A DNA stretch of 64,000 nt from Eutypella sp. D-1 (taxonomy: Eukaryota; Ascomycota; Sordariomycetes; Xylariales; Diatrypaceae). A program made the position numbers and the translations under genes. Positions 42 to 46,254 of this stretch are shown here, piece by piece. Below the pieces are notes generated by a model. That model was not told the origin of the DNA. It saw nothing but the letters and a program-made list of their open reading frames with translations, and did not search any database. The stretch is taken from positions 1-64,000 of the forward strand of contig JAJTTP010000020.1 of assembly GCA_023313575.1 (NCBI GenBank), written 5' to 3'. Numbering within the stretch: position 1 is the first letter of the stretch; the number at the start of each line of letters is the position of its first letter.

Positions 42-911
42 ATGGTTGCGTATCAGCTATTATCTACAGCTTCAGAATGCTCTTGCCCCGCAGAAGAACC
101 GTACACAGGTCATAAACGCCAGGGAACACGATGGATCACGTACAGTGTGGTTCTGCTTGTACTCACAAACCTGCTCTCGCTTAGCTGGATCCTCTGGATG
201 CCCCAGGAACTTTATCCATCTCAATTAGGTAAGTCTGCCATTTGCCATTTGCCATTCGCAGCGACGACTCAAATCTTAACGGACAAACAGCTCGCACCGA
301 AGAACTCAACACCGTCTACACACGCTTCTGGTGGAATACAGCGTACAGCCCTGCGAACCGCTCTGATGCTGACAGCCTCTGGGACGAGATCAACCCGGCG
401 CACGGAATTGTGAGCGTGGATCGAGCATGGGCGGCGGCGCAAGGCTGGCCACTGAGCCTTTACCAGCCAGACGACAAGACCAAAGCGGTGTATCTCCTTG
501 AAGCATACCACCTGCTACACTGCCTAGTATGTCTCGTCAGTATGCCAAACTTAAGCGCATTACTAACTTATGTAGCGTATTATGAGATTGACATTGTGGG
601 AGGCAATTGATGGGAAGCCGTTCACCTACCACCCAGGACCGCACGTTGACCATTGTTTCGATGCTCTGCGGCAAAACGTTCAGTGTGCCGCAGACAATAC
701 ACCGCTGTACACGTTCGGTGACCATACAGCCGGCGATGGGCAGCTCCGTCGATGCAGAGACTGGGACCAGCTGCGTGCTTGGGCTTTTGAGAATACCGCA
801 TGTTACCAAGATAGCATTGATGATATACCGCTCAAAGATCACTTTCAGCATTGTAGAGATGATGGAGATGATGGTGTGAAACCCATTGATTACGGAGCAA
901 TCATTTCATAG
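42..911 (+). CDS. UstYa-type DUF3328 oxidase 1
   Basis: Predicted 252-residue single-pass membrane protein with exons 42-228, 291-526 and 576-911; both introns have GTAAGT/GTATGT donors, and the second has a TACTAAC branch point. A hydrophobic segment (about residues 31-53) follows a short cytosolic N-terminus. Two HxxHC motifs, HLLHC at 136-140 and HVDHC at 164-168, are the signature of the UstYa family, followed by the usual CAADNTPLY stretch. Family members perform oxidative cyclisation or halogenation/hydroxylation of RiPP and some non-ribosomal peptides. It lies about 0.9 kb upstream of a KR-repeat precursor on the same strand, which makes peptide crosslinking the likely job. The tail after residue 230 is rich in Asp/His and may vary. 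Family call is firm; the reaction is inferred. Confidence 0.9.
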
Positions 912-1773
912 CACAACGCTTCCCAATACAGGGATTCCGTTGCGATCACGGGCAAAGTATGTAATAGTAGAACACGAAAAGAACACTACACATGCAAATG
1001 AATGTGCAGGAAAGCAGGGGCACAGGTTTGCTTCCCAAGTCTGAAGCGTAAGGTCGCCGCTTACAACCTTTGCCTCACGACTTCTTCCACTAACCCGTAC
1101 CCAGTCTATGCTAGTGGAAATATAGTTTTTTAAATTTTACTAATTACTTCCCTTGCCTCGCATAACGAGCTGTAAGATCAAGGTCTAGTTACCCTTTAAG
1201 ACAGGAACGCGCTACGTGGTTCAATTTATATATACTATATTAAGGATGCCGTAAGCTCACCCCCCACGCAGCTAGCTGGTGTATCCTGTACATAATATGT
1301 GCGGTAATTATACGGGCCCTTTTTCCTCCTATTAGGTGATAAGGCGCGACTGTTTTACCTGCAGCCAACGTGCGATTTTTCACTCGGCGAGTACGATTGA
1401 CAAGTCCTCCCGCTCCACAGTGCTATCACATTTCCACTGGCTGGGAGGCAGTCGTATTCTCTCCATTAATCGATGACCCCCCTCGTCGCAGGCAAGAGGT
1501 TAACTCCATGCATATTCATGTAACATGTAGGTTGTGCAGGGTAGCTGTGCCGCCTTATAGACGTTGCATCACCCGGGTTCTATCTCTTAAGTCCATGTAT
1601 GGAACGACTCTCGGATTTGTTGCCTGGACTCACCGTAGTCTCCAAGGCTTTGGAGAATAATTCTGGGCGCTTATCCTAGGCAAATACGTATATTTAACCT
1701 CCCCTTTCAGCTTTTCTCCTCCTGACATGGTCGACAATGACATATACTTTTCCCTCTTGGTGCAACTCATCTC
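912..1773. other. Intergenic region, no supported gene
   Basis: No exon with recognisable family motifs is seen on either strand. The last 100 bases are CT-rich and form the promoter side of the small precursor gene. Confidence 0.5.
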
Positions 1774-1780
1774 TATAAAA
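1774..1780 (+). promoter_or_regulatory. TATA box of RiPP precursor
   Basis: A TATAAAA heptamer sits 35 bases before the precursor ATG, with a pyrimidine-rich tract upstream and a short CAACATG leader. Few other genes in the window have such a clear TATA box this close to the start, which suggests a strong, tightly placed promoter for this tiny gene. Confidence 0.6.
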
Positions 1781-1808
1781 AGTCTAAATAGTCAACAATT
1801 CTTTCAAC

Positions 1809-2056
1809 ATGCGTTTCATGCCTCTGCTCCTGTTCTACGCCCTTGGCAGCGCGGCCCCGATAAGTTCAACCCGTATGGATTACGCAGCTAAATGCTAGGT
1901 TCAAGCTAACTAAATTTAGGTATTGATTCTGTGAGCGGCAAGAGAAACATCAAGAACCCAGATGATGTCAATTTCGGTGCTGTCGGCGATACCTACAAGC
2001 GGAATATCCTAAGCTCCGACGAGGTGGATTTCAACGCGGTGGGCGACACGTACTGA
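1809..2056 (+). CDS. Dikaritin-like RiPP precursor peptide
   Basis: Predicted 66-residue secreted precursor with exons 1809-1872 and 1920-2056. The intron has a GTATGG donor, a GCTAAC branch point and a TTTAG acceptor; without it the frame stops after 29 codons. The N-terminus is a typical signal peptide (MRFMPLLLFYALGSAAP). After it come a KR site, core 1 (DDVNFGAVGDTY), a second KR, then NI plus core 2 (DEVDFNAVGDTY), which ends at the stop codon. Both repeats begin NI after KR. Signal peptide, Kex2 sites and repeated Tyr-containing cores define the fungal dikaritin/KexRiPP class (ustiloxin, phomopsin, asperipin), and the gene is bracketed by two UstYa-type genes. The core matches none of the ustiloxin, phomopsin or asperipin cores I know. 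An alternative donor at 1864 would shorten the leader by three residues without changing the cores. Confidence 0.85.
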
Positions 2057-2793
2057 GGAAGGCGACAATCCTCTATTCTATTGACCATGAGCACTCCGGC
2101 ATCTTAGGAACGGGGTTTACCTGCACGTTGGCAAGGTCGCAGTGTACTTCTGCCGTTGTTACTTGTTGGCGAGGTGGGGGGCATAAGATCAGTGTGACAT
2201 CGGGGTAGTGATTTTATTTTCATAAATGCAACAACACTCGTTACACCCATATCACAGCACAAGATGATGTGTTATTGCTAGCACTTAGAAAAGCCTGCTC
2301 CTGTAAATGGCGGTGAAGCGCCGAGGAGGTACATTAGATTACGAAGTCGTATTGCTCGACAAAGCTTTTGTTGAAACCCTTGGCTGGGAAGGACGGCTAC
2401 GCCTCCTCAGTTCGTAACCTGTAATACCACTATCTTACATATATATATGCGGTGGGCATTATAATTGCAACGGCAGAATGGGCGCCGGATGTTAAATTCC
2501 GAGAGTTAATACATAGATACTGTGGATCTTATTATCCCCGGTAAAGATCGGGATCAGGAGACTGTGATCTACAAAATGCACCGGTGCAAGGCTATCAGAC
2601 GACATTTGAACTCCTAAATTTCTGACAAACACGCGCTCTCCTTTTTACTGTAGCCTTGCTCTGAGCTGCGTATCTCTCCTATTACCCTGCCTTCCTGTCC
2701 ACTCTCGAGATTACTCACACTCCACCGCGTCCTCGTTTTTTTCTTTCGTCATTTGCTCACTCTAGCTTTATCTTGCTTATCTCGAGCTCCTCC
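2057..2793. other. Intergenic region upstream of UstYa-type gene 2
   Basis: No supported gene. It holds the 3' flank of the precursor and, from about 2640, a CT-rich promoter/leader stretch before the next ATG. Confidence 0.5.
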
Positions 2794-3669
2794 ATGTTTT
2801 CGCAATATTTCCAAAGCCCGCGGTACTCGAAGCTCGAGAACGGCACTGACCAGAGAAGCACTGGACAGAACCCGAGGCGGTTCAAAACTTGGCTTGCGGC
2901 GGCCGTCACGTTGCTGCTCTGCGCTCTCAGTTTTAGCGCTGGTTGGATGTTCGGAGCAGCGAACACCCAAGCACCCGCACTTCCGGATATCATCCCATAT
3001 CGTACGTAATACGCCACTCCGCCGCGGAGTTGCTTACAGCTGGGTAACATTACATTGCGCAGTGCCCGCCACGGGCATTTCTCGACAACAGGTGATGGCC
3101 CGACCCGAAATGCAGGCTGCACCTCCAGCCAATGGGAGCCATGAACCTGCATGGGATACATTGATCCCTAGTAAGGACTAAGCTACTGACCGGCATAACT
3201 ATCATACACTAACTCTCTAATACGATATAGATGGGCTCGGCTACATACAGCATCCCATTTTGGCACCTGAGGTCTCTGTCATCGGCATCTTTCACCAACT
3301 GCACTGTCTGGTAGGTTCTTTCACAGGCGCCAATTCGGATTGGCGGAAGACCCACTCTACTAATTGCCTACGGAATGGAGTTGTTAGTACACAATACGAC
3401 GTGCATATTACGCCGCCTACGCCGCCTCAAACGGGCAGGAATTCAACAGAGCGGGCGTGCGCGAGCCTGATCATATTGCTCACTGCTTTGACTATCTGCA
3501 ACAGAGCCTGGTGTGCACGGCAGACATTGGAATTGAGCCACTGTATGGGGGTCACTACCCCGGCGTCATGTTTGGGCGGCAGTGCCGCGACTTTGTTGAA
3601 ATACGGGAGTGGGCGTCGCAGTGGCGCGTAATCAACGGGTCGGGTTTCATTTTTGATTCCAGACCGTGA
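2794..3669 (+). CDS. UstYa-type DUF3328 oxidase 2
   Basis: Predicted 225-residue membrane protein with four exons: 2794-3001, 3063-3170, 3231-3310 and 3388-3669. One transmembrane helix lies at about residues 36-56 (WLAAAVTLLLCALSFSAGW). The conserved body then follows the family order: AWDTLIPNGLGYI, HQLHC at 127-131, IRRAYYAAY, and HIAHC at 161-165 followed by FDYLQQSLVC. The two HxxHC motifs are thought to carry the catalytic metal site. Splicing was chosen so these blocks join in frame; the 77-base third intron removes in-frame stops. It sits downstream of the precursor and 130 bases before a methyltransferase. Paired UstYa/UstYb proteins act together in ustiloxin-type pathways, so this is probably the partner of the gene at 42-911. 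Confidence 0.9.
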
Positions 3670-3799
3670 TGGAATCCAAATAAGTCAGCGTACCGATTGC
3701 ACTGAGGTAAAGAATAAACTTTCCTATGCATTTATTTTTGAACAATACACCCCATCGTTGGTTGTTGCATGGCACCCTACCGTTCCCTTACATCCAGCT

Positions 3800-5302
3800 A
3801 TGGCTCCGCGTATCGGCCAGTTGGCGACTACTATCACTGCCAACACCAACACTATCGTCGACTACCTGGACCAGAACAGCCTCCCGCACCCATCTTTCGA
3901 CATAGATGGACCCATAACGCTGAAACTCTCGCCACAAGTAGAACGCGCGCGTAGCACTGCGATTGATGCTCTTCAGGAGCTGTTGGACCTGCTGCAAGGG
4001 CCGATCGCTTGCATGTTCCCCAATGTATGCATTCTAGCCAGGCCAGAGGAAGTGTTTAGGAGGTAGACCTATTGACACACATGTAGTATAATGCCACCAG
4101 TCTACAGATCATTTCGCGTTATGACATCGCCCGTAAGGTCCCGATGGAAGGCACAATTTCATTCACGGAGCTGGCCGAAGTTACGGATCTACACGCCAGC
4201 GACTTGAAACGCATTGTACGCTTCGCCATATCTTTCCATAGACTCTTTACGGAGCCTCAAGAAGGCTTCATAGCGCATTCTGCGGGTTCAAGGAAGCTTG
4301 CTACCGATGAGATTGTACACGCTGGTTTGGGACAGTCGTTCGACGACTTTTACCGCTCCTTTGCCAGAGTACGCCCCCCCCCCCCCCCCCTCGCTGACTC
4401 CTTGAACTGCATGAGCGTCAATCATCTAATTGGTTTCGAACAGACGCCAGATGCACTGGGTAGGTTCAAAGATGGCGAGCCTAACCACACGGTACGAGTT
4501 GTGTAAAATGCCTGACCCAAGTTACGGAAGCTGATTTGGAACAGGGATACGCATTGGCACACAACACCGACATGACCATGTTCGACTACCTACGCACGCA
4601 GCCCTCCAAGGCCGACCAGTTCAGCAAGGCGATGCGCTGCTACTCAGCGGGTATACCGGAATACTCGGAGTCGTACCTCATCGAAGGCTATGATTGGAAC
4701 TTACTGGGCGCAGGCACCGTCGTAGACGTCGGGGGCGGAGACGGCCACATTAGCCGAGCGCTCAGCAAGGCGTATCCGCACCTAAATATGGTGGTCGAGG
4801 ACTTACCAGACGTCATAGCAGCAGCAGTGCAACAGACACCTCCGACCAATCACATTCGCTACCAGGCTCACGATTTCTTCTCACCGCAGCCTGTTACGGC
4901 GGCGGACATCTACCTGTTCCGCTGGGTATTCCACGACTGGCCGGACCACTACGTTGTCCGGATTCTGCGGGCACAGGTGCCGGCCCTGCGCAAGGGTTCA
5001 CGGGTTCTTGTGAATGAGAGCCTGAGCCCGCCGCCAGGATCTTTGCCGCTGACGCTCGAGCGAACTATCTGGTGCGTTACGAGTCTTCCGCACTGATTCT
5101 GCAGGCAACCGTTGACACACTTCCCATACTGTGTAGTTTTATTGACTTGCTAATGTTAACGACGAACAATTCGCGACTACGCACCATCGCCGAGTGGCAG
5201 GGCATGTTCAGGGCGGCGGACTCCCGGTTCGGGACTCTCCGCCGTTTCTCCGTTGAGGGAGCTGCCCTTGACATTCTTGAGGCTGTCTGGGAGGGGGATT
5301 AA
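3800..5302 (+). CDS. Class-I SAM O-methyltransferase (Methyltransf_2)
   Basis: Predicted 408-residue O-methyltransferase with exons 3800-4024, 4108-4368, 4444-4491, 4545-5071 and 5137-5302. The N-terminal winged-helix dimerisation region (to about residue 170) is followed by the SAM loop VVDVGGGDG (237-245), the acidic EDLPDV block, and FHDWPDHY with the catalytic-base His at 308. The C-terminal exon restores the family block DLLML...W..MF..AD. Length and order are normal for fungal COMT-like enzymes that methylate phenols or carboxylates of secondary metabolites. As last gene of the co-directional group it may methylate the processed peptide, for example a Tyr oxygen or an acid group; that is inference. 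Intron 2 carries a run of 17 C. The RIP-mutated block begins about 75 bases after the stop. Confidence 0.92.
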
Positions 5303-7324
5303 TTCAGATTGGCTTGTCTAGGTCTGACGGGTACGAGATGGAGTCTGCGACTTAAGAACATAACGACCGCGGTTATTATAAATAGCTGAAATTAATACGT
5401 CGATTTAATTAAATTAAATAAGCAATTTTTAATACGATATTAAAGTACGTAGTTTAACATAAAAAATATTAACGTATATATTTTTATTAAAAAAATAATA
5501 TAATATTATTAAACATTTTTAAAATATTTTTAAAAAATAACTTTTTAACGTTTATACTTTTTAATATTTATAATGTTTTAATTTTAAAATTTCGGTTTTT
5601 ATAATAATTATTACCTTTAATGAATTAACTTTTTATTTTAATAAAATAATATTAATATAATTTTAAATACTTAATAATTCAATGAAATTTATTAATATAA
5701 ATAATAATATTTATTTAATTTTCTTTTTAATACTTACGTTTATAAATATAATTTATATTAATTAATTCTTTATATATTATTATAAAAGCATTATATAATG
5801 GATTAATTATAAAGTAATTTAAATTTTAAATACAAGTATAATATTTATAACGTGTTTAATATTAATATAATAATATATAAAGAATTAACCCCGGGGCGGG
5901 TTTAATTTTGAATATAATATAAAATCTTTTAATTAAGAAAAATTAAAAAAAGTTAATTACTTTATTATATAACTTGTAAAAAATAAACAGTTTTAATATT
6001 TATTAAATATATAAAGCCTTTTATTTATATTTAAAATAAAATCGCCCCGGGACTACTTTTTTTATATTAACATATAATAAATTAAATAATTAAATTATTA
6101 AATACTTTAACTTATTATATATATAATTATATTATAATATTTATTAAATTACTTTTAATAAGCTAGTTTTAATTAAAATTAAAACTTTAAGTTATATATT
6201 TTACTTTTATAAGTTTAATATTATCGAATTTATAAGCTATTTTATAAAGTTTGAAGGTGAGGAGAAAAGGAAGGAAAACGTTAAATTTATAAATAATAAT
6301 ATAAAATCTTTAAAATAAATGCTTAAAGTGGTTAAAGCTTAAAGCTATTACTTATTTATTATTTTATTTCTTAAACGGTAATAACTATGATAGTAATTCT
6401 ACTGTAATAATTTATAATTAAAACTTAAAAATAATATTTTTTAAACTTAATTTTATATTATTAATATAATAATTAAATAAGGTAAGTAATATAAAAAAGG
6501 TAATAATAAAAGATTTAAAATCTTTTATTATTTTATTATATAAGTTATAACTTATTATTAAAATAATAAAGCCTTTAAAAGCTTATATTAATTATATTTA
6601 ATTTATTTTAAAATGACTTTAATTATTATATAATATAAAAATGGTTTGCCTTTTTAAATTTATATTATATATAATAAAATTTAAAATATTAATATATAAT
6701 AATAAGCGTTATTATTATATGGTAATGTTAATGTAAATTTAATATAAACGTTTATAATTATTATTTATAATATAATAATAAAAAACTTTAATATTTTTTA
6801 TCATTACTTTTTTATATTACTTAACCCATTTAATTATTATATTAAACATGTTAAATTTTCACTTTAAACTTTAATAAAGATAACATAATTTATTTATTAA
6901 CCTGTTATTATTTTAAGTATTTTAATTTTTACTTTAAATATATATATTTATATGTATATTTATTATAAATACCGGGCTTTATATTACGTTTTATATTATA
7001 ATTATTATAAAGGCCTAGGTTTTAACGTATAATAAAAGGCTTTTAAAGCCTTTAACGTTGAATAAAAAATACGTAATAAGTTATTATAATACGTAAAGCT
7101 ATAATAATTTATTAAAGATTTTAAATAATTATATAATAATGTATTAAATAGTTTTATAAATTATTATAATTAATATAAATTTAAATAAAGTTAAAATAAG
7201 TAATACTATTTATATAAGTAAAAATCGAGAATTCTTTTAAACTTACTTATTATTAGTTTTTTTTAAAGAGATTTTTAAATAAGTGGGTTTTTTAAGCTGA
7301 CCTGGGTTACCTTAATAATTGTAA

Positions 7325-7354
7325 AAATAATAATAATAATAATAATAATAATAA
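7325..7354. repeat. (TAA)n microsatellite
   Basis: About nine tandem TAA units within the AT-rich block. Confidence 0.8.
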
Positions 7355-8126
7355 TTATAAATTTATAATTTAATTTTATAAACGGTATAATAATATTATA
7401 TTATCACTAATATTAATATTAATAGAAATAAATTAATTTTTATAATATATATAAGTAATAAACGCTATATTAATATTATATTAATATTTATTATTATTAC
7501 CGCCCCCGCCGTTATTATTACCGGCGCTTTATTATTTCTTTTTAAACAAAATATTAATAATAACCGAAAATGCCCGGTAGAATATAAAGTATTTCGTATA
7601 TATTATATTATTATTATTATTACGTTATTTAAATTATTTACGTTATTATTTAAAACAGTAAAAAGAAAATTAAATTTATTTTTACCGAAAAAAGCTTTAT
7701 AAAAATAAGTTATTATTTTTACGTTATTTATTTTACAGCCGATGTTAATTATATATATTAAAACTTTACCGGTAAAACAATATTATATTTTTATATAAAG
7801 TATTAAAATTATTACGGTCTTATTACGTATACGTTACGTGTTTTATGAAATATAAATAGATATAAATTTTAATTATTAAATTATATTAATATGTATTATA
7901 TCTACGTTATTATAAATTACGTATTATTTCTGTATGACGTTAATATTATATATATTTTAATTTTATTAATTTTTATTAAAGTTTTGTTAACTTTATTATT
8001 TAAACCGTTATTTATAACTTTAAAAATATTAATATTATGCTTTTAAACCGTTTTTATTTTTTAAATTACCCGTTATAATGTTATATATACTTTACGTAAA
8101 TATCGCCTTAATAATAATATATAATG

Positions 8127-8260
8127 AAATAGCCCCCGAGCTTTTAAGTTTAAAAGCTATTAGCTAGTGCCCATTTATTAACCGGCAGCTAGTTATTACT
8201 GGTTATTATATAAGGCTTACCGGCTTTAATTATATTTAAACTTATTAAATAAAAGTTTTT
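8127..8260. repeat. Dispersed repeat copy related to 55.84-56.14 kb
   Basis: The stretch beginning AGCCCCCGAGCTTTTAAG and continuing to GGCTTACCGGCTTTAATTA matches, with RIP-type differences, both arms of the inverted repeat at 55835-56140. It looks like one end of a dispersed transposable element. Confidence 0.45.
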
Positions 8261-8429
8261 AATTATATTTATTTTTTAAAATCACTTATTATTACCAGGT
8301 TATTACGTTACGACGCTTATAACCATTTAACCCTTTATACAATATATAATCTTATTACGTTATTATTACGGTATAAGTTATAGCCATAATACGGCCACAT
8401 TTATAATAAGTAAATGGCTTAATAAAATC

Positions 8430-8705
8430 TTTAATACAGTTTTTAAAAAGGGCTGCTTAAATAATAAATAAATAAATACGTAGGTATATAAATGAAGCAT
8501 TATATTTAATATAAGTGGGTCAGTATAACTTACCGGCTGCTGTTAGCCGGTAATAGGTTAATATTTATTTAATAAATATTAAAAGGCCTTTATTTTTTAA
8601 TTTTTAAAAACTTTTTACTTTTTCCTTAAAATTTAAAGAATTTCTTTTAATATATTTTTAATTTTATTACTTTATTAAACTTTATAATAACTTTATTATA
8701 TAATA
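8430..8705. repeat. Direct repeat, left copy (candidate old LTR)
   Basis: About 270 bases matching 16786-17031 in the same orientation. Shared landmarks are AAAAAGGG followed by a TTAAATAATAAA tract, a small palindrome with TTACCGGC and GCCGGTAA arms, and a common pyrimidine-rich tail ending TAATAACTTTATTA. With its partner it brackets about 8.1 kb, the size of a full LTR retrotransposon; this assignment is inference. Confidence 0.5.
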
Positions 8706-10894
8706 TCAATTTTTTCGATTTTTATTATAATGCTATTTAATATATCAGTATTAAAAATATTAAATTAAATGTTTATAATACTTTAATTATCGACCGATCG
8801 ATTTAACGATATTATTATTTTAATTAATTACTTTAAAAGTTTAATAATTATTAAAATTAAGCAGTTATTATAAACTAAACGGTTTTTTTAATAAAACGTT
8901 TAAATTAAGTACTTTGTTTTACGAAAAGCTTCTTAAAAATAAATATTTCTATTTATTTATTTTATAACTTATTAATTCGTATAATATTATTTCTTTTTAC
9001 CTTTTCCTTATAAAAGTTAATCCGGTCGATTATAAAAATAAACTTACTCCGTTTTTATAATTATACCTTTAAATTTTAATCTTTAATTAAATTTAACTTA
9101 AACGTTAAAAAGCATTTACCTGTATTAAATTTTTACGTAACACGTAAAATATTACCTTGAAAACTTTATAAGTTATAAAACCTTTTTTAAAATCGAAAAG
9201 TAATTAATTATAATAATAAGCTATATCAGTAAAAAGCTTTATTATTATTTTTTAATTTACGTTTATTTTTCTAATTTATTTTATACGTATAAGTAAAAAG
9301 AAAAAGAATTTTCGGTACGGAAAATACGTACCGTTATAATAAATAAAAATAATCTATTATTTAACCCGATACCGGGTTAATATAAAAACTTATTATAAAG
9401 ATTTCCTTCTGATATAAATATTTAAAAGCTTATAAATAAATAAATAAATCGTAAAAATTAACATTTTCGAAAAATAAATAAAGTATAAAAAATAAATTAA
9501 CGCCGTGCTTTTATAAATAATATGTATTTATATATATAAAGCCGGGTATCGGAATTATATATAATAAATACCGATTTAAAATAAAAATTTATAACTTTAA
9601 AACCCGATATATTAAACGGTAATAAATAATCCGTTTTATAAATTAAGAACCGAATCTTTAAATTAAAATATCGATAAAAAGCATAATTGGAAAAGTACGG
9701 AATAACGTTTAATAATATAAATAATAATATTATAAAAATTAATAATTTACTTAAAAAGTTCCGTATAATAATAAATAGTTTTATTAAAAAAATTGATTTA
9801 AAAATTAACTTATTAATTAAAAACGTAAATTATAATTTTTTTAATTAAAATATATTTATACGGAATTTAATTAATATAAACGCTTCCGTTTAAAATATAA
9901 AGTTTAATACGTTTAAAACGAATATGTAACTTATAGATTATTTTAAATAAAATATAAATCGTTTAAATAATAATAAAGCCTTAAAAAACCTATAAAATAC
10001 GGCCTGTTTCGGTATTAATAACAGTTATAATAATCCCGACTTTAACAGTTTTAATTACGGATTTTATCCTTTATATTAAATAAAGCCGTTTTATTATAAT
10101 TATAAAATTTATAAATGTTTTTTTTAAACCTGTTTAAATTTTATTAGGTTTTTTTAATTAAATTATTTCCTGATTTATTTAAAAACTTATACGTTAATAT
10201 AAACCTTACCGGCCGAAACGATATTTTAAAGTTTAAATAAAAAGATATCGGTATTTTTAACCCGTATAAAAAAAACCTTACGGATATAAATATAATAGCT
10301 ATAAAAAATCCGGTTATTTTTACCGATTCGATATTATATCGGGATAAATTTAAACCCTTTTTTAAAAATCCCTTTTTTTATAAATTTTATAAAAAGTAAT
10401 TATTAATAATATAATTAACTTTTTTAAATAAAGCCGTTTTTATTTAATAAAATAATAAAATCGTAAAGTATTAACGGTAAAATTTTCATTATTTAAGTTT
10501 TAACGGAATAGCCGATACTTTTATATAAAAACTTAAGCCCGATCCGGTAATAATTATAATGAAATTTATTACTTTTTATTATAACCTTAAAAGAATGGTT
10601 AAAAATCTTAACTTATTTATTACGTATTTTTATAAAAAGTTATAATAAATGTATTATATAAATATTTTAATAAACAATAATTAAAATTAATACAGTATAA
10701 CGTTTAAATTTAAATTAATATTATATTCGATATAAAATAATATCTGTATTTACTTTAATTTAATAAAACTTTAAAAGCATATATATTATAAATAAATAAA
10801 ATAAAGATTATTTTAACTTTAGTTATTATATAGTTTTTGAAATTATAAAACTTATATAAAAAATAAATATAAACCTTATAATAAACCGCGTAAT

Positions 10895-11321
10895 TATGAC
10901 GACCGGTTTATTCCTAACTATTAGTCCAGTCGGGGGGTTTATATTAATAAGAGTATTAAGGGTTTTAAGTAATAAGTAATTACGTTTAATAATAAAAAAA
11001 AAGGGTGCTTTAAATAATTAAGTTATATTATAAGTTAATAAATTTTAAAAACAATTTAAAAAAAAAAGTAATAAATATAGCTATATATTATTTATATCTT
11101 TTATTTTTAATACCGGAATATGATATTAAATATTAAATCGTTAGGATAACTGGTTATCCCAGCTATCCTGGATCACTGGGATAGCTGGCTATCCTGGCTA
11201 TCCTTTTTATCACGTAACCTAAGTATGGCTTATCTTATCATGGCTGTCCCCTTTAATGCCATGGTTAGGGATTGTTTGTGCCAATCCTATTTAGGCCTAA
11301 TGACCTAGCCAGGTCATAACA
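10895..11321 (-). mobile_element. Solo LTR, variant A
   Basis: A 427-base LTR in reverse orientation relative to the element, containing the family block TTCCTAACTATTAGTCCAGT near its left end and CCTAGCCAGGTCATAACA at its right end. It is flanked by a perfect 5-bp target-site duplication GTAAT (10890-10894 and 11322-11326). With no internal sequence between matching duplications it is a solo LTR left by LTR-LTR recombination. Its U3-like part holds repeated CCAGCTATCC/GGATAGCTGG words (about 11140-11205). Confidence 0.85.
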
Positions 11322-13760
11322 GTAATAATAAACCTTATAATAATAAAAATTAAAAATTTAAAAATAAAAATTAATTTAATTGCTTTAAATAAAATAATTT
11401 TCGTAAAATTAATAAAACGCGTTATATCGATAAATACCGCCCCGACCGTAATAATAATTATAATCGTAAAAAAAAAAAAAAAGGTTTATTACGCCGGTAA
11501 CGGTAATAATAATAAATCGTTTATAAAATCGGGTTTTAAAATTTCGGAAATTATTTTAAATAATCTTATTTATATAATAAATATTATATGATTTTTTTAT
11601 TATTTATAAAAAAACGGAGATATATTTATTATTACGTTTTAAAACCCGCTTATAACTTTAAAACTTTATCGTTTATAAAAATAATAAAATGTATTTATTA
11701 TCGATATTATTTTTAATTTATTTCCCGTAATTTAATATTTTAATATATTTAAATAAAAAATATAAAAAAGTAAAATTTACGCTTTAATTAAAGGCTAAAC
11801 AATTAAAAACTAAACGGTTAAAAATTAAATAGCTTATTTTTTAAAAAACGCCGCTTTTTATATCGGAAACCGTAACGGCTTTAACTTTTTATATTTATTT
11901 AAAAATTAAAACGTAAATTATTAAAAAGGCTGGTAAAAATATTAAAATCTATTTCGACCTTAATATAAAATAAACCATAATTAATAAGTTATTTTTATAA
12001 AAGTTATAATATACCGTAATTTAAAGACCCGGGGCGAATTAAAAGAATTAATAATAAAATGTTTAAAGTTTTTAAATAAGTTATTTTTACGTTTTACCTT
12101 TTTAATTACGATAAAAATAATACTTTTATATTAATAAAACTCTTTAAAAAAGAATACATTATTAATAATACGTTTTAACTTAATACTTTTATCGGTAATA
12201 ATATATTATACCCGTATAAAGCTAATATTTTATACGTAAATTTATAAATATCGTTTAATATATTATTAAATAATAAAATTATTACCCGAAAATAATAGAT
12301 TTTAAAAAACTTTTTATCTTTACCGGATAGACTTTATATATCGATATAAAATATAAACCTTTATTTAATAATCGTAATTTTTTTAAGCTATGTATTTATT
12401 AATAATATATACCGTAATTAATACTATAAGTTTATATATAATAATTATAAAACATATTACGAAATTTATTATAATTATTTGTAAAAATATACGTTTAATA
12501 TAATTAAAAAAAGTACCGATATAAATATTATACGGTCGATTAAAGTATAAATATAAAACCTTTAACCTTAAACGCCGTTATAATTTTAATAATTTTAAAG
12601 CTTATTTTATTTAATAAAAATACGTATTTACCGATTTTTTATAACGTTATATCGGTTTTTATCTTTATTAACGTTAAATGTAATATAAATTTAAATATAA
12701 TAACCTTAATCGTAAAAGTTCCGCTTATAATACCGGACCTTATAACGCCGTATATAAATATTATAACTTTAATTATAAATATAATATATAATAATTTATT
12801 TATATTAAGTAATTATAATATTTTTAAAATATTTCCCGATAAATTAATTCTTAATAAGTTTAAAATAATAAATAAATTTTTAATTACCAGCACCGTTATA
12901 CCGTATAGAAAAGTTATTATTAAAAAAGGTTTATTACTAGACCTTAAACTAAATTTTAATAAATTAAAAATATTTAATATTAAAAACCCTGTTATCCTTT
13001 TTAAATAAATTACCGATAAAGATATTTATATATATGTTAAAAACGTTATTTTTATTAATAAATTAATAAATCTTATTACCGTATACTTTAAATTATAAAT
13101 TAATAAAAATATTATTAAAATATTAAAACAAAATTAAATAAAACTCTTTATTATTAAAAAATAATAAAATTAAAAATTAAGCTTTAAGTTATACCTTTTT
13201 AATTATAAAAATAAAAGTTGTTTTAATATAACTTTTAACCGGTTATATAATTTAAATTGTTATAAATAAATTATAAAGCTTTTTTTATTTACGTATTTTA
13301 TTTTTATCATTTAAAAATATATTTACGGTAAAAGAATTAAATAAATTATAATAAATTTATAACCGTTTTATAAAATAATTATATTTAATAATTACTTATT
13401 ATTTTTATAAACCGATATTATCGTTTTTATCCGTAATAAACGGTGTATTATTATAATAAACGTTAAAATATTTTTTTTTAATTTATAATATATTTGAATT
13501 ATCGTAATCGTTTTATAATAATTAGCTTTTAAAATATTAAAGGTTTTATTATAATATTTATAAAATTTCGTAATGTTGTAACTTTTACGTAAAAATATAT
13601 AAATAAGTTATTAAAAAGTTATACGTATTATTAAGCTTTTATTCATAATATTATTAGTTTTTCCAATAATGAAAAAAGCCATTTATAATATTTTAAAATA
13701 GTTTTTAAATGTTTTATTTTAAAAAATATTTTAATTTTATTTAAAAAATTATTTTTCGGG

Positions 13761-14175
13761 TGTGACGGCTGGTCTATTCCTAACTATTAGTCCAGTCGAG
13801 GGGTTTATGTTAACAGGAATGCTGGGGGTTTTAAGTAATAAATAATCACGTTTAGTAATAGTAAAAAAAAAGGTGCTTTAAGTAATTAAGTTATATTATA
13901 AGCTGGTAAGCTTAAAGATTATTTAAAAAAAAGGTAATAAACGTAATTATATATTATTTATATCTTTTATTCCTAATACTGGAATATATAATTATGTTAA
14001 ATCCTTAGATCGTAACGGATTTAACTAATACCTTTAAATCCATGGATCATAACGGATCCATGTATAGCTCTTTTTATAGCTTATTAAATGTGGCTGGCTT
14101 ACGTCTTTATTCTTCCGGCAGTACCGCCAACGAATAGGGTTACCAGCCCCCACTTGGCCTAGTCAGGCCATAACA
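13761..14175 (-). mobile_element. Solo LTR, variant B
   Basis: A 415-base LTR with termini TGTGACGGCTGG and GGCCATAACA and a perfect 5-bp target-site duplication TCGGG (13756-13760 and 14176-14180). The first 240 bases match variant A; the rest differs, containing GGATCATAACGGATCCATG and CTTCCGGCAGTACCGCCAAC. It is clearly less mutated than the surrounding DNA, so the insertion is younger than the host sequence. Confidence 0.88.
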
Positions 14176-16785
14176 TCGGGTACTTTTCGGTAAAGTTATT
14201 AAAATTTTAAATAAACGTATTAAATATGTTTATAATAATAAAACGTATTAAAGCGTTTAAAGTTTTAATATTTTTAAAATAACTTAAAGCGTTAAAGTAA
14301 TATTTTAAAGTTAAGGGTTTTTTATAATATTTATTATTATATTATATATAATATATAAAACTTTTATAAAACAAAATAACATTATTAACTAAAAGTTATA
14401 AAACGGGATAAATAATTACCGGTAATAGAAAAAAATAATAAGTTTATTACTGCTTTATTTATTATAATTTAATTGTTATTAAGTTTAAATTTTTTATAAC
14501 GGTTTATAGTTTTATATATAATAAAATTACTTTTTTTATTAAAATCCCGATTATTACTTTTTTTTAAATCGATAAATTTTTAAAATAAAGTTTTAAGGTT
14601 ATAACTTTTTATTTTAAAATAAATAAATAAATTGCGGGTATAAATATCCCGGTATTATAAATATAATTTATTATATACTTAAATCGATATTGTTTAATAA
14701 CGGAAACCCGGTACGGTTTTTTAAAATTTAAAATCGTTTATTTAATATAAGCTGTTAAAAAAACCCGTATAATAATTTAATCGGTTAATTTCCCGGTTAT
14801 TATATTAACCGATTATTTAATTATAAAAAATATTATTAAATAAATTAGTTTTAATATTTTTAAAAGAAATAAAAACAAACGCTATTTAATTAATGTTTTA
14901 ATAAATTTCTTTAATACGATTTACGTATTTATTATATCCCGAAACGGTTAAACTTTATTTTAAACGTTTTTAACCGTTTATATAACGTATTTAACCGAAA
15001 AAAAAGGGATAATATTAAGCAATTTATAAAAGTACCGATTTTTAATAAAGTAAAAAACGATAATAATAACGGTAATAACGCCGCTTCTTTCCTTAAATTA
15101 ATAAAAATAATTTTATTTAATAATATAAAAGTTAAATTTAAAAGAAATTATGATAATAATATTCGCTATTCCGTTATTATATAAAATTATTACAGGAAAT
15201 TTTTCGCGCGCCGGTTATTTATTTAAAATCGTTAACAGGCTATTTTATAATATTATATAAATAAAAAAACGTAATTTTTATATTTTTTATAGCTTAATTT
15301 TAACGTTTATAATTATAATTTATAATAATAAGTGTTATTTTAAATAAAATCTAATATTATAAAAACTTTATTTTATTAAAAAAGTACATAAGTTATTACA
15401 TTAATTATAACCTTAACCGAATAAATAAATAGCGTTTTTATAATAATTATTAATTTATCCGTTTAAAAAAGATTTTATTAATATAAATTATTATAATAAA
15501 TTTTATAATAAACTTATTTAATTTACCGATTATAAGCATATTTTAATAATTAAATAATAATAAAACGTATTACGATATATATAACATTTTTATAATACTA
15601 AATTACGTTATATTTAAACGGATAACGTTTATCCCGGGGTATTATAAATATATAATAAAAACTTAAATTACCGTATTAATAAAAGTGGTTTTATTAATAA
15701 ATTAAAAAATATTCAAAGTTATTATATTAAACCGGAACCGTAAATTTATATTAACTTTTTAAACGGGTATATAAAAAGCGTTAAAAATAAAAGTATTAAT
15801 AATTATAACTTATTACTTTTAAAAAAAAGATTTCTTTAAGCGAAAAAAGTAAACGGTCGAAATTATTATTTATTATTATTATTATATATATTTTAAATCG
15901 AATTAAGTCTATATTTTTCCTTTTTTTTAATAAAATGTTAATAACGCGTATTTAAAAATAATTATTTAACTTTAAAATATTAAGTTTTATCGATATATTA
16001 ACGGATATTAATAATAATAAATATAGTTTTGTTTTAAATTTAATTAGTTTAAAAATATTTATAAAAAAACGCTTATTATATTTTTAATTTTATAACAAAT
16101 CGCATAAAGCACCGTTATAACTATAGTAATAAAGTAATAAAATTTAATAAAAACGATAATATATATTTACGGCTTTATAATAAATATTATTTACCCGGAA
16201 AACCTTTTAAAAAATACTTTTAATAAAAAGTTAATTTATAAAAAGTTTTATAATAAATCGGACGGTTAATTTACGAAATTAAATTATTACTTATTTTTAA
16301 AATTTATTTTATTATCTCCGTTATTTACGTTTTAATTAAAAGAAATAACGATTTGTTTTAATAATAATAACCTTTACCGGGACCTGTTAAAACCGATTAA
16401 AACGTTAACTTTAATAATAATTAAAGTAATATATATAAAATTAAAATTATTATAAGTTATCCCTTTAATCGCCGTAAAACGGGTTATAAATATTTAATTA
16501 AATAAAAAGGTTACGGTTATAAAAAAAGCTTTCCGGAAAAAAGTTACGTTATTTAATTAATTTAATTAAAAGATATTAAAACTGTAAAAATAAATAATTT
16601 ACTTTATTAATAAACGTTTAAATAAATGCTTAAGCCGATGCTTTAAGCGCTTAAATTAAAACATAATTTAAACGGAAAAGAAATCGTTTTTATAAAATTA
16701 ATAATATAATTAATATCGTTATTATTTTAAATATTTAAATATTTTATTAAAGTTAATAAGTTTCTTTTATTAAACCCGGTATTTT

Positions 16786-17031
16786 AATATAGTCCTTAAA
16801 AAAGGGTATTTAAATAATAAATATATAAATATATAAATAAATTAATATAACTTACCGGCCGTTACTAGCCGGTAACGGGTTAATACTTATTTAATAAATA
16901 TTAAAAAGTTTTTATTTCTTTAATTTTTAAAAACCTTTTGCTTTTTATTTAAGATTTAAAGATTCCTTTTTAATATATCTTCGATTTTATTACTTTATTA
17001 AACCTTATAATAACTTTATTAATCATATAAT
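16786..17031. repeat. Direct repeat, right copy (candidate old LTR)
   Basis: Partner of 8430-8705, same orientation, with the TTACCGGCC...GCCGGTAA palindrome and the same tail. The two solo LTRs at 10.9 and 13.8 kb lie between the copies and would be nested later insertions. Confidence 0.5.
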
Positions 17032-18174
17032 AAAAAAGCGGTAAGCTTTAATAATAACATTATATTTACGGTGCCGCTTACACTTTAAATAGCAGATAAA
17101 CCTTGCTACTTTAATTTATTATTTTTAAGCCAGAGCTTAGCTTTTAATACAACCTGTAAGCTTATATAACTACGCCGTTACAGCTATTATTTTAAGTACC
17201 CCCGTTATTATTATTATTATTTTACCCGGTATTACCCCCGGCTTTATTACCGTTATAATAACGTTATTAAAACACGGCATTACCGCTTTTAAAAGCATTT
17301 TTATAAGTTTTTAAACCGTAATATAAACGTATTAAAAACGCCGTCAACTCGTTATAAAAACGTCCCTTAACATATAGCTCGGGCCGGCCGCCGCGGCCGT
17401 AATATTAACAGTAATAATAATAATAATAACAGTAATAACGGCAGTAACGGTTTTATAATATAAACTTATAAAAGTAATATTTATAAAGATATTATAAATT
17501 AATATTAAAAAAAGGTTTATTATTTTAATATTATTACTTTTTTAATTTAATAATAATTAATCTAATAATTTAACTTTTTATAATTTATATTAAATATAAT
17601 AATAATTTTAAATAACGTTAATAATATTATTATAATTATTACTTAAAATAAAATTTAAGTTTAAACCTTAATAAAATATCCCCGGGGGTAATTATATTAA
17701 AATAATAAATTACGTTTAATACGTTATTATAATATATTTATTTTACTTATAATAAGTTAATTTAATGCGATATAAATAAGTTTAATAAATTTATATTTAT
17801 AAATATAATTATTACGGTATAAATTATAACTTATACCAGCTTATATAATACGGTTATCTTTATAATAAATAATATAATATAATAAGTAAATAACTTAATA
17901 AAATTAATAAACCTTTATAATATAAAAGCGATATGCTTTTATAATATTATTTACATTTAAATAACTGCTTGTATTTTAAATATTAAATAATGTTTATTAC
18001 TTTTAATTTATTATTTTTAAATTATAACTTGACTTTTAATATAACTTATAAGCTTATATAATTACGCCGTTATAATAATATTAAAAAAAACTTTTTAATA
18101 AAAAAGTTATTTTAATATAAAACATATAGCCGTATAATAAAGTTATTATTTAAAAATCTTTTAAAGTTTAATAT

Positions 18175-18555
18175 TGTTATAACCTGGCTAGGTTATTAGG
18201 CTTAAATAGGATTAGTATAAATAATCCCTGACCATAGCATTGGAAAAAACAACCACGATAAGATAAGTTATATTTAAGTTACGTAATAAAAAAATAACTT
18301 AAATAGTTTAATTATTTTAATAGTTTTAAATAACCTGGATAACTTAATTATTTTAACGATTTAATATTTAATATTATATTCCGGTATTAAAAATAAAAGA
18401 TATAAATAATATATAATTATATTTATTACCTTTTTTTAAATAATTTTTAAACTTATTAGCTTATAATATAACTTAATTATTTAAAGCATTTTTGTATTAC
18501 TAAACGTAATTATTTATTATTTAAATTATAAGTTAAAAATAAACCGGCCGTTATA
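18175..18555 (+). mobile_element. Solo LTR, variant A, internally deleted
   Basis: A 381-base copy in element orientation, beginning TGTTATAACCTGGCTAGG and ending CCGGCCGTTATA. It is flanked by a 5-bp duplication AATAT (18170-18174 and 18556-18560). Compared with the 427-base copies it lacks part of the 3' region, including the block around the conserved TAGTTAGGAATAG, and is heavily RIP-mutated. Confidence 0.75.
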
Positions 18556-18759
18556 AATATTATAATATAAGCTTATAAAAGTAATATTTATTTAAATATT
18601 TTTTATTATTACTTTTTTAATTTAATATAAATTAACTTAATAATTTAACTTTTTATAACTTATATTATTTTATTAATCTTTTTAAAATAATTACTTATTA
18701 TAAATATAATTATATTATATATGTTAAAATCATGTTAATAACCACCGTATAATAATAGT

Positions 18760-19150
18760 TTATATTTTTACATAATAATATCTCCGATTTTATCGTACGT
18801 AATATAAGCTAAAAAGAATAAAAGTTTCTTTTAAAATAAATAAAATACAATACCTGTTTTAACCCTTATGTATAAAACCATAATATAATCATATATATAA
18901 CAACTTAAGTTATTTAATAATATAAATAATATAAACTAGTATAAGTTATAATTTATACTTTATTAATAATCATTATACGATAATATCTCGTATTTTATCG
19001 TGCGTAATATAAGGTAAAAAAATAAACCTTTTTTTTTATATAACAATTTAAACTTTTTTTAAATAAATAAAGTTTAATATTTATTTTAACCTTTATATAA
19101 AAATTATAATATAATCGTATATATAATAACTTAAAGTTATTTAATAAATA
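18760..19150. repeat. Two tandem copies of a degraded repeat
   Basis: Two copies (about 18775-18930 and 18980-19145) share ATAATATCTC.GATTTTATCGT.CGTAATATAAG and a tail ending AACTTAAAGTTATTTAATAA. A third copy lies at 56590-56785 in the right-hand AT block. Origin unknown. Confidence 0.5.
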
Positions 19151-19345
19151 TATTAAATAATTATATATTTATTAAATATTAAAAGGTTTAAAAATTAAAA
19201 AGTTTATCTTTTTATTTATAAGTTTTATTTATTTTTAAGTTTTATATGTTTTTAATCTTTTTAAGTTTTTAAAAATTAATTATATAATAACGTAACTTAA
19301 AAATCTTAATCAAATAATTTATAAATAAGGAAAATCTTTATAAAT

Positions 19346-25986: not shown

Positions 25987-27159
25987 TCACGCCGCCGCTA
26001 GTTTTCCCGGTGGTTGTTTCGGGACGGGGCGAGCACCGGTCCGCCGCGGATCGTTCCACGCCGGAGCTCTTGCTGGGGACTGCTCCCACCCGTCATAGTC
26101 CACTAAGCCATCATCTTTTACCATCGAGAACGTTGGGTAGATCCTTGGGTGGCTCCGGGGAGGCACTGGGCGCTTTGGCGGTTCCGGCATGGTCCGTAGT
26201 TGGTGTCGCTTTGAATTAACCAGCATGTCCTTGGGTTTCTCATCACCGTCGCGCGATTGAGGGCGCATGAGCGGTCCGGAATCCTCCCATTCCGCGGCAG
26301 CATCTTTCCGAACGGCAGTGACCGCCTCTACCGCTACCCGACCTTGGTAGTCCATGCCACGAACCATCTGCCAAGCCAGTGCATTGATAATCTCGTGCCG
26401 CGCTGTTTCCTCGTGGAACCAGGCGTTGTGGTCACTCCACAGGCCCTCATGGTAACCCCACCCCGCGTCATACATCTGGAGAAGCCGCCTCATGGTCTCC
26501 TTCCATGCCCAATAGATGCGCGGCCCGTCGCTGTTGTCCTCCGCATCATGTTGCGCGGGGACCCATACGTCCCGCTGGAGATCCGTCGAGAGCCGAAGGC
26601 CACCAATCTTTTCTAGTATGGCCTTGACTTGAGTTTCGATCGCCATAGCCCGGATGATAGCCTCGGTTCCCGTCGCGGGATCGATCACGGCTATGTGGTT
26701 AACCCGCTTGCCGCCGTCGGTGAGGTGGACGACCGCCAGGACCCAGTGGCTGGAATCGACGTGGAACGCCCACAGAAGATACTCGTAATTCTGCAACGCG
26801 GCCGTCCAGCTACATAGCCGCCGACATGCGTCCCACCAGCGCTGGTCTCCCCACTTGGTAGAGCTCCAGACACCCTTCCCCCGAGGGGTCACCCGGCAGC
26901 TGATGCGGCGGCCCAGGTCTCGCGGGAGCGCATCCCATAGCTTGTTGGCCGCCGCCTCCATGCCCGTGCCGGATATTTCCGTGTCGAGCGAATATTGCAT
27001 TCGAGCCATGTCGCGCGCCGCTTCCTTCCCAATGGGCGCGAGTGCCGGGACCTCATCCGGACCGGGCAGGTTCATGTGATCGAGCTGGCACAACCTGTTC
27101 CCGGGGCACACCACCTGCCCGTGCGTGTAGCACATACTCGATTTCGCCTTGGTGGCCAT
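25987..27159 (-). CDS. Ulp1-like (C48) protein without expected catalytic Cys
   Basis: Intronless 390-residue protein. Residues 125-165 read YLLWAFHVDSSHWVLAVV...NHIAVIDPATG, matching the His-Trp strand and Asp of Ulp1/C48 cysteine proteases (H138-W139, D160). Further on, QHDAEDNSDGPRIYW (203-217) aligns with the usual Q...N..DCG segment, but no Cys stands where the nucleophile belongs. The rest is Pro/Arg-rich C-terminally and has Cys/His clusters near the N-terminus (C10, C18, C24). Such C48-like frames occur in fungi both as single genes and as remnants of transposon-captured proteases. Either it is catalytically dead or the nucleophile lies elsewhere. GC-rich coding and the clean 1.17-kb frame argue that it is expressed. 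Moderate confidence in the fold. Confidence 0.6.
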   Translation of the reverse strand: MATKAKSSMCYTHGQVVCPGNRLCQLDHMNLPGPDEVPALAPIGKEAARDMARMQYSLDTEISGTGMEAAANKLWDALPRDLGRRISCRVTPRGKGVWSSTKWGDQRWWDACRRLCSWTAALQNYEYLLWAFHVDSSHWVLAVVHLTDGGKRVNHIAVIDPATGTEAIIRAMAIETQVKAILEKIGGLRLSTDLQRDVWVPAQHDAEDNSDGPRIYWAWKETMRRLLQMYDAGWGYHEGLWSDHNAWFHEETARHEIINALAWQMVRGMDYQGRVAVEAVTAVRKDAAAEWEDSGPLMRPQSRDGDEKPKDMLVNSKRHQLRTMPEPPKRPVPPRSHPRIYPTFSMVKDDGLVDYDGWEQSPARAPAWNDPRRTGARPVPKQPPGKLAAA

Positions 27160-28033
27160 CTTGAGACGTGCGTTGGTGAAATATGGTTTTTGATCTGATT
27201 GAGACGCCTATTACTGTTTGAGCCGTCGAAAATCGCCTCGCTCGGAGAAAAGTGGAAAGTTGGTCGATGAGCAGGATACTCTTCGCTGTTCCAATTCGGG
27301 CAGCCTGGGGTTTGCTGTAGTTAGTGTAGACTACAGCACGTTGTTCTTGTTTTGATATCAGTAGCTAATACCGGCCCAACAAAGGGTGTTCGTGTTGTGA
27401 GACTAATACAACGACTGTGAGTCTTTCTTGCGACCGCGTTCGGAATTGTCGTTCTTGGCTTTGGGAATCGAGCGCTCCCCTTTGTTTGCATCTAGCACTA
27501 TGTCCTTACCGTCGACTATTAGTCATCTAATAACATGGCCGACCATAAGTTGGCACCCATCCTAGGTATTACTAATGCCTTCCGCTCCACTGATACGTTG
27601 GCCTAATATTTCTGGTAATCCTTGTCATTAGTGATCGCCTCCATTGAGTACGCGATACATTCAATCAAGCGGATAATTAAACTTGTTATTCAAGATGTGT
27701 ACTCCTTATGGGCTTTGCGCTGATTTCTCAATTGGAGAGCTGGCTATAGATGACTAATAATGGCTTACTAGTAATGTAGGGGGTTTCTTAGACCTCTAGC
27801 TTATCTTTCCCCTGCTGAAATGGCTGCAGATGCGGGCGGGCGACAAGTTGTCTCTGTTGGTGGCGGAGTTGTTACTGTCGACCAACTGCATTATGATTCG
27901 AATCTGTATCCAGCTTTATAAACCAGCCTATTTCGTAGCTTGAGTTATAGCGATGAAGGATGGCATCAATCCTTACCAAGCTTAATCTTATTGTATTCGT
28001 TCTCCTTGTCTGTTCGCTTCCATCTTTACCACC
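27160..28033. other. Divergent promoter region
   Basis: Lies between two divergently oriented reading frames; no gene seen. Confidence 0.45.
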
Positions 28034-28914: not shown

Positions 28915-29739
28915 TCAGAACCCGTTGTCCTCAACCAGGCGTGTAAATTCAAGCCTTTTTTCAGAGCAAGGCTGCAAGACCTCCTTCAGCACTGGAATCC
29001 ACCACTTCTCGTGCTCATGGCAAAGACACATGGCGAATGCGTACTCGGCGTAGTCAGGGAAAAAGCCGCTATTCTCCCAGTCGACAATGCCAGTGATTCT
29101 ACCGTCCTGTACCAGAATATTGCGCGGAGTGAGATCCCCATGAGTCAGAACAAACTTGGCAGGTGTGTCTCGTCGGCTACGTTTCAGCATCCGCTGCCAT
29201 TTCCACCTGTTAGACCAGTGAAGGCGGGCAAGACACCACTTATCGAATTCCTCCTCGTTGGCGAACGGCCCACAATAGGTCTGGGGAATTCGGTCGTAGA
29301 CGTTGCGCACGTGTTGACGGCCGACGCGCCCAATGAAGGATTGGGTGCATGCACGCATGCGAGTGATCTGCGTACGGAGTTGGTCCTTGATATTGGCCTT
29401 TTGCGCTTCGTTGAGGTCTTCCCAGACATCAACCAGGGGAACTCCTGGCACTAACTCACTGACCAGCACACGGGCGAGAGGCTTGCTAGTGACAATATCA
29501 TAGACCCCACGAACACGGGGGGCTAAAATACCATGGGTTGCGGCATAATGCATCATATCGCCTTCAGAGCGGTCTAGCGAGTCCGTCGGCAGAATTTTGA
29601 TTGCGAGAGCATTGCCGGCTGCTGTCACATGCTCCACAACGCGGTTGCCGAAGAAGTAGTAAATATCCCTGCCCTGAACCGCGTCAACATAGTCCATGCG
29701 ACGAAGAGACGGGAGCTCAGGGGTCGTCAGATCTGTCAT
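28915..29739 (-). CDS. APH-type small-molecule kinase 1
   Basis: Intronless 274-residue protein of the aminoglycoside phosphotransferase/choline-kinase superfamily. It has ALAIKIL (Lys about 48) in the N-lobe, an LVSELVPGVPL hinge (92-102), the catalytic loop THGDLTPRNILV (199-210, catalytic Asp 202 and Asn 207) and IVDWENSG (218-225), whose Asp 220 binds Mg. Fungal genomes carry many such kinases; most phosphorylate small alcohols or amines and few have known substrates. The stop lies beyond VEDNGF. A related but clearly different copy lies across the AT block at 34291. Real antibiotic resistance is not implied. Confidence 0.88.
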   Translation of the reverse strand: MTDLTTPELPSLRRMDYVDAVQGRDIYYFFGNRVVEHVTAAGNALAIKILPTDSLDRSEGDMMHYAATHGILAPRVRGVYDIVTSKPLARVLVSELVPGVPLVDVWEDLNEAQKANIKDQLRTQITRMRACTQSFIGRVGRQHVRNVYDRIPQTYCGPFANEEEFDKWCLARLHWSNRWKWQRMLKRSRRDTPAKFVLTHGDLTPRNILVQDGRITGIVDWENSGFFPDYAEYAFAMCLCHEHEKWWIPVLKEVLQPCSEKRLEFTRLVEDNGF

Positions 29740-30109
29740 GGCTGCTGCCGGCGCTGTTGATCAACCGTAGCCTGAATTAAATGTTCGATTGAACTGGGTT
29801 AAGCGTAGTCTTCTGCAATGGGCGAGAAGACATGGAATAGGTGGAAGAAGATGGAAACCTATGAATATCAGTCTATTTCTATTACGAGTAATAGGAAATC
29901 AATTGTTAGGTCGCGTATTCTTAGTGTCCACAGGTGCCTGTTTATTAGGCTTAATCGCTGCAGGGATTGTCCCGAGGCCTTCCGGTCTGCCTATTAGACC
30001 ATGCTAGGCGCTGTAGTTTGCAGTGGGTCGCGGTTAAAGATTCCTTAATCTTACTTACCTAAGCAGCACGTAAGTCAACCACCCCCTCCCCGCCCTAACC
30101 CCTTCCCGC
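29740..30109. other. APH kinase 1 promoter and boundary of AT block 2
   Basis: No supported gene. AT-rich sequence begins near 30110, after a CCCTCCCCGCCC tract. Confidence 0.4.
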
Positions 30110-46032: not shown

Positions 46033-46254
46033 GGGTGAATGTATTATGCGAGACCAACCCATGGTGGCTTCGATGAGCTAGGTGGATTAGGATGATCTTC
46101 CTACAATTGGATGCAGCACGGTCGCGTCATCATTGTGGTACTTTCGTCTCTTGACGACAATAGGAATATAATTTGCATCATTAAGAGTACGCTATTAAAA
46201 CTCGACGTGGATGGTGATTAATCCTTCGCGTGGTATTAGCGAATCATAAGGGGT

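Follow-up and report, generated by a model that had tools for sequence, protein, structure and literature searches.

The stretch of the Eutypella sp. D-1 genome analyzed here (the window, 64,000 nucleotides; G000:C13:1-64000 in an assembly of 48.5 Mb and 72 contigs) begins with four genes, all on the + strand within positions 42-5302, which encode, in this order, a UstYa/DUF3328 oxidase (Ya1), a short peptide precursor, a second UstYa/DUF3328 oxidase (Ya2) and an O-methyltransferase (OMT) (Table 1). An earlier note on this DNA had read these genes as an undescribed dikaritin-like cluster for a ribosomally synthesized and post-translationally modified peptide (RiPP). Its account of the locus agrees with what is seen once 1809-1872 is spliced to 1920-2056: a 66-residue precursor with KR at two sites and a pair of repeats that end in AVGDTY, flanked by two proteins with paired HxxHC motifs and followed by an O-methyltransferase gene. 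Contig C13 begins at base 1 of the window, only 41 bases before Ya1, and the cluster may therefore be incomplete on its upstream side. Downstream, it is directly followed by a block of low G+C content (12-21 %, ~5.4-19 kb). Across the window, blocks of 12-28 % G+C (~5400-19300, 30000-34000 and 56000-64000) alternate with gene-rich blocks of 43-61 %; such a two-speed architecture is typical of fungi that undergo repeat-induced mutation.

Table 1. Features of the cluster at the start of the window
Feature	Position (exons)	Strand	Remarks
UstYa/DUF3328 oxidase 1 (Ya1), 252 residues	42..911 (42-228, 291-526, 576-911)	+	HLLHC, HVDHC; PF11807, 1.3e-21
TATAAA, possible core promoter	1774..1779	+	35 bases 5' of the precursor ATG; consensus match only
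Precursor gene, 66 residues	1809..2056 (1809-1872, 1920-2056)	+	hydrophobic leader, two KR sites, two repeats
Intron, 47 nucleotides	1873..1919	+	directly after the leader; GTATGG...GCTAACTAAATTTAG, branch-like GCTAAC, TTTAG; predicted from sequence
Core 1, NIKNPDDVNFGAVGDTY	1946..1996	+	flanked by KR on both sides
Core 2, NILSSDEVDFNAVGDTY	2003..2053	+	runs from KR to the stop codon
UstYa/DUF3328 oxidase 2 (Ya2), 225 residues	2794..3669 (2794-3001, 3063-3170, 3231-3310, 3388-3669)	+	HQLHC, HIAHC; PF11807, 6.2e-23
O-methyltransferase (OMT), 415 residues	3800..5302 (3800-4024, 4087-4368, 4444-4491, 4545-5071, 5137-5302)	+	PF00891

Joining position 1872 to 1920 gives the precursor translation MRFMPLLLFYALGSAAPISSTRIDSVSGKRNIKNPDDVNFGAVGDTYKRNILSSDEVDFNAVGDTY; stop codons interrupt the frame if it is left unspliced. 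The borders of the predicted intron are GT-AG, as are those of the other nine introns modelled in the cluster. The leader claimed for the precursor is present as a hydrophobic N-terminus (10-residue mean hydropathy up to 2.16), judged by hydropathy alone. KR precedes each of the two repeats and KR or the stop codon follows each, with the Tyr of AVGDTY adjoining the putative cleavage site or the stop in both cases. The repeats are identical at 11 of 17 residues, 7 of these 11 being encoded by different codons, and differ at 18 of 51 bases (11 at third positions). In trials in which repeat 1 received 18 randomly placed changes, under a model that assumes origin of the repeats by duplication and takes no account of base bias, at least 11 residues were kept in 5 of 20,000 cases; the retention of 11 residues despite these base changes suggests that the repeats are under protein-level constraint. 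The pattern scored here (a peptide of 4-8 residues, KR, a spacer, the same peptide, and KR or a stop) occurs at a single place in the 37.4 kb of gene-rich sequence of the window; 100 first-order Markov simulations of equal length never produced it. A looser repeat scan of 13 regions had no hits in the gene-rich parts of the window outside the cluster (32 kb). No Pfam family matched the precursor at E ≤ 0.001.

The matches of both flanking proteins to PF11807, a check proposed in the earlier note, and that of the last gene to PF00891 all exceed the curated Pfam cut-offs. For Ya2, one of the two splice combinations tried left the frame open. In an alignment of 21 sequences of the Ya2 type, the His and Cys residues of both HxxHC motifs are invariant; among 16 aligned sequences of the Ya1 type, no variation is seen in the first motif and almost none in the second, the respective stretch being missing from one gene model. 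An AlphaFold2 model of the Ya2 orthologue P0001 (mean pLDDT 77, pTM 0.67) contains an N-terminal helix of membrane-spanning length (residues 30-52) and places the motifs (H123-C127 and H157-C161) on helices 120-141 and 155-172. Comparison of this model with PDB folds gave 14 matches at E ≤ 10 and none at E ≤ 0.001, and the sequence search for Ya2 gave no match at E ≤ 1. As described in PMC12435403, the HxxHC pair of the DUF3328 protein CctR forms a binuclear copper site, and its single membrane helix is proposed to place the domain in an organelle lumen.

Both oxidases have close relatives in other fungi. The search with Ya2 yielded 94 proteins at E ≤ 0.001 (from 316 candidates), the 13 best of which are 60-76 % identical over 81-100 % of the length and, going by species names, presumably come from Xylariales or near kin; one of the Ya2 relatives is P0003 of Hypomontagnella monticulosa (71 %). 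Ya1 yielded 44 proteins at E ≤ 0.001 (from 241 candidates), with 60-80 % identity for the eight best, and its nearest relatives likewise presumably come from Xylariales or near kin. Pairing of the two oxidases was assessed by the size of the longest contig recorded for each entry, a comparison that displays no gene context. Relatives of Ya1 and Ya2 lie on equal-sized contigs in seven fungi: Annulohypoxylon moriforme (288131), Nemania serpens (125105), Xylariomycetidae sp. FL2044 (2132267), Xylaria telfairii (31662; the Ya2 match covers 59 %), Nemania diffusa (210569), and, with weaker Ya2 matches, Viridothelium virens (533224; 36 %) and Paecilomyces variotii No. 5 (122480; 40 %). In Annulohypoxylon, the two genes carry tags F4805DRAFT_459765 and F4805DRAFT_459767, with one tag number vacant between them. 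Furthermore, P0005 of Nemania bipapillata (393 residues) fuses Ya2 to the first part of the O-methyltransferase in one gene model, which shows that the two genes adjoin each other in that species too. However, for 9 of the 14 Ya2 relatives counted as close (P0001-P0013 and P0019), the Ya1 search listed no relative from that species; close Ya1 relatives without a close Ya2 occur in Xylaria longipes, X. curta and X. flabelliformis; and the contigs are of unequal size in Usnea florida, Massariosphaeria phaeospora, Aspergillus similis, Xylaria curta and other entries of Paecilomyces variotii. Usnea and Viridothelium, both with relatives of Ya1 or Ya2, we take to be lichen-forming fungi.

At the level of sequence, the anatomy of the precursor, the clustering, the families of the enzymes and the conservation of the enzymes can be stated directly. 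Collectively, we consider a dikaritin-type RiPP cluster to be the best explanation of the locus, and a fairly probable one, in line with the reported enrichment of DUF3328 genes beside Kex2-repeat precursors (PMC7329392). From these features we infer splicing, Kex2 cutting, the site and kind of oxidation, cyclisation and methylation, as follows. The leader would direct the 66-residue precursor into the secretory pathway, where Kex2 would cleave after the KR pairs to release two 17-residue peptides ending in AVGDTY, the KR being trimmed from the first peptide by an assumed carboxypeptidase. Unmodified, cores 1 and 2 would give [M+H]+ values of 1838.856 and 1858.834, respectively. Within the secretory lumen, the peptide would be oxidised by the two DUF3328 proteins, which are predicted to be anchored in the membrane and bear HxxHC pairs of the two-copper type; the likeliest reaction is the joining of the C-terminal Tyr, or of the Phe, to an adjacent side chain, perhaps forming rings. 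The O-methyltransferase would then methylate the product or an intermediate.

Several results weigh against this explanation. A search of 5.8 billion proteins, reaching annotated proteins of ~36-115 residues, produced no precursor homologue at E ≤ 10, only 11 candidates that shared words with it and did not score, and none of the 138 oxidase relatives contains VGDT, GDTY or AVGD. In the Eutypella genome itself, the precursor search matched only its own locus. These searches neither demonstrate nor exclude conservation of the core. The earlier note had made conservation of the KR-core pattern in related genomes a test of its claim, and what we found is conservation of the enzymes only. The DUF3328 pair, the Kex2-type repeat precursor, the tight clustering and the conserved enzymes fit its dikaritin-like reading, which is supported in part. 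In addition, none of the four genes modelled in 42-5302, where the contig ends, encodes a tyrosinase, a transporter or a peptidase, no wider search having been made for the latter two; the closest tyrosinase match on the contig, among the best candidates, is at C13:279707. PMC12048977 describes a missing tyrosinase as not uncommon.

The strongest competing explanation takes the precursor for a Kex2-processed signal or defence peptide that undergoes no DUF3328 modification, with the oxidases and the O-methyltransferase acting on another substrate. Of the 7878 Kex2-repeat proteins surveyed in PMC7329392, 6120 lack a DUF3328 gene within a distance of 15 genes, and, as the window starts at a contig end, a further core gene may be present past that end. 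The precursor is, however, directly flanked on either side by a DUF3328 gene of the same strand and carries Tyr by the cleavage site or stop in both repeats, and the same survey reports Tyr in 65.6 % of the repeats beside DUF3328 genes as opposed to 38.2 % elsewhere, which makes this explanation rather unlikely in our view. Alternatively, the precursor could be a chance reading frame within a non-RiPP DUF3328 pathway. The search of annotated proteins found no homologue of the precursor, Pfam gave no match, and DUF3328 genes are known to act in polyketide and non-ribosomal peptide clusters (PMC12048977), a further point against the dikaritin-type explanation. A chance frame would nevertheless have to account for a repeat pattern that neither the simulations nor the remaining gene-rich sequence reproduced, for the protein-level constraint between the repeats, and for a GT-AG intron with a branch-like site, and we deem it very unlikely.

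The methylation step proposed for the dikaritin-type cluster depends on the last gene. An initial model of 408 residues with exon 2 from 4108, on which the PF00891 match (4e-29) was scored, was replaced by the 415-residue model with exon 2 from 4087; this start agrees with P0005 by eye, and with it the best PDB score is 134 instead of 122 bits. Four of the 18 splice combinations tried left the frame open. The best PDB matches are HpiI, 7bqj of the same series and LepI, which we take to be pericyclases. The protein retains a glycine-rich segment, VVDVGGGDG, and the HDW motif, the latter position being occupied by HKE in two HpiI-type chains and by RDF in LepI; an altered HDW, a class mark of O-methyltransferase-like pericyclases that we draw from these very chains, is not seen here. 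Retention of both segments favours a functional methyltransferase over a pericyclase. That the last gene is instead an O-methyltransferase-like pericyclase, as its best structural matches would suggest, is the least probable of the alternatives in view of its full HDW and VVDVGGGDG, even though the His still present in the two HpiI-type chains makes that residue alone no discriminator.

The genome contains at least 21 matches to PF11807, which we grouped into 11 neighbourhoods, and the ten others were examined over 9-10 kb each. A KR- or RR-type repeat precursor is present in 5 of the 11, the cluster described here included, which speaks for the dikaritin-type explanation; 3 of these 5 precursors have two repeats only. 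At the left end of C28 (L024 1880-4995), a UstYa gene is accompanied by a two-repeat RR precursor on the opposite strand (KVIYPDY/KVIYHDY), with a luciferase-like monooxygenase after them at L024 7004-7846. Continuation of the Ya1-Ya2 cluster onto C28 was considered and rejected: nothing links the two contig ends, and the C28 precursor has a different core. On C34 (L025 ~7170-7457, - strand), a two-repeat precursor (VFFYGWGEEAKR/IVFVNWGHEAKR) lies amid several UstYa frames. Five-repeat precursors beside a UstYa gene are found on C13 near 133 kb (L028 ~2260-2699, - strand; KR-QYSPAALRIAE and variants) and, in a secreted form, on C5 (L031 5687-6259; NPDYIYTDVDAIES and variants). In the former, the intron comes straight after the leader in the best of five open splice candidates; this precursor was missed by the looser scan of 13 regions and found otherwise. 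A scan match in L027 (6 of 12 matches) was judged to be due to chance. At C12:2684794-2692694, a UstYa match and tyrosinase matches are ~7 kb apart; ustiloxin-type clusters are known to combine the two. No repeat precursor appeared in the scans of the corresponding region L032, which stops short of the tyrosinase.

Elsewhere in the window, positions 36756-55627 represent a possible second metabolite cluster. This segment includes frames that by eye look like an O-methyltransferase with HDW (36756-37786, - strand) and a cupin (46479-47027, - strand), a UbiA prenyltransferase (40346-41431; PF01040, 7e-43), a KR/short-chain-reductase-like frame at 44864, and cytochrome P450 frames at 48167 and 54908, the start of the latter being resembled by a frame at 54266. 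Outside it, a weak match to Ulp1-type proteases (25987-27207, - strand; PF02902, 3.3e-4) and an APH-like kinase frame (28915-29760, - strand; PF01636, 2e-15) were noticed.

If the dikaritin-type explanation is correct, the fungal DUF3328 RiPPs gain both a new core sequence and an O-methyltransferase from this locus. The wider interest lies in a two-repeat, intron-split precursor between two conserved oxidases. It would suggest a location for the precursors that some published clusters lack, namely the gap between the two oxidase genes, where they may exist as short intron-split frames with two repeats only; public assemblies allow this to be checked. More tentatively, and with considerable doubt, one may envisage Ya1, Ya2 and the O-methyltransferase as the core of an old and widespread RiPP family in Xylariales, lichen-forming fungi and Paecilomyces, the intron-split two-repeat precursors of which escape both gene prediction and surveys that demand three repeats; the locus would then be the first to offer a candidate precursor, and those not found in the lichen clusters of Clan R1 (PMC12048977) would be of the same sort.

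The dikaritins ustiloxin, phomopsin and asperipin-2a share with this cluster a secreted precursor, cores repeated at Kex2 sites, DUF3328 oxidases and, in some cases, a methyltransferase; the counterparts seen here are a secretion leader (by hydropathy), Kex2-separated repeats, DUF3328 proteins with paired HxxHC motifs and a methyltransferase by Pfam match. Unlike the dikaritin clusters, the one described here has two repeats only and no tyrosinase in view, its core differs from those quoted in PMC7329392, and its O-methyltransferase is of the PF00891 type, which PMC12048977 says had never been reported in dikaritin clusters. As in the Kex2-repeat proteins (KEPs) of PMC7329392, a putative signal peptide precedes repeats of at least 8 residues between dibasic sites; KEPs are defined there by at least three tandem repeats, whereas the precursor has two, and because of this requirement two-repeat precursors fall below the cut of that survey. 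With CctR and other copper-dependent DUF3328 enzymes, among which PMC12435403 cites the cyclase AprY, the oxidases share, according to the model, one N-terminal membrane helix and paired HxxHC motifs on two helices; the substrate of CctR is a non-ribosomal cyclic peptide, which is hydroxylated, whereas the substrate here is probably ribosomal and the use of copper is predicted. The nearest described arrangement is that of Clan R1, which likewise combines two distinct DUF3328 genes with an O-methyltransferase. As compared by description, the latter gene lies between the DUF3328 genes in Clan R1, together with a tyrosinase and an FGE-sulfatase, and PMC12048977 reports no repeat precursor found, whereas the order here is Ya1, precursor, Ya2 and O-methyltransferase, with neither a tyrosinase nor an FGE-sulfatase among the four genes modelled. 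None of the papers searched contains AVGDTY or has both "dikaritin" and "Xylariales"; together with the absence of precursor matches among annotated proteins of ~36-115 residues, this supports the word "undescribed" in the earlier note to that extent. The pathway is probably of a type already known, and the peptide itself was not found described. The Hypoxylaceae survey of PMC8403587, which notes that RiPP pathways are recognized by precursor similarity and that the share of the real diversity covered cannot be estimated, mentions an ustiloxin-like RiPP cluster in the Hypomontagnella species and in two of Hypoxylon, H. rubiginosum and H. pulicicidum. This cluster may or may not be related to the one described here; as Hypomontagnella monticulosa possesses P0003, the 71 % relative of Ya2, the two could belong to the same family.

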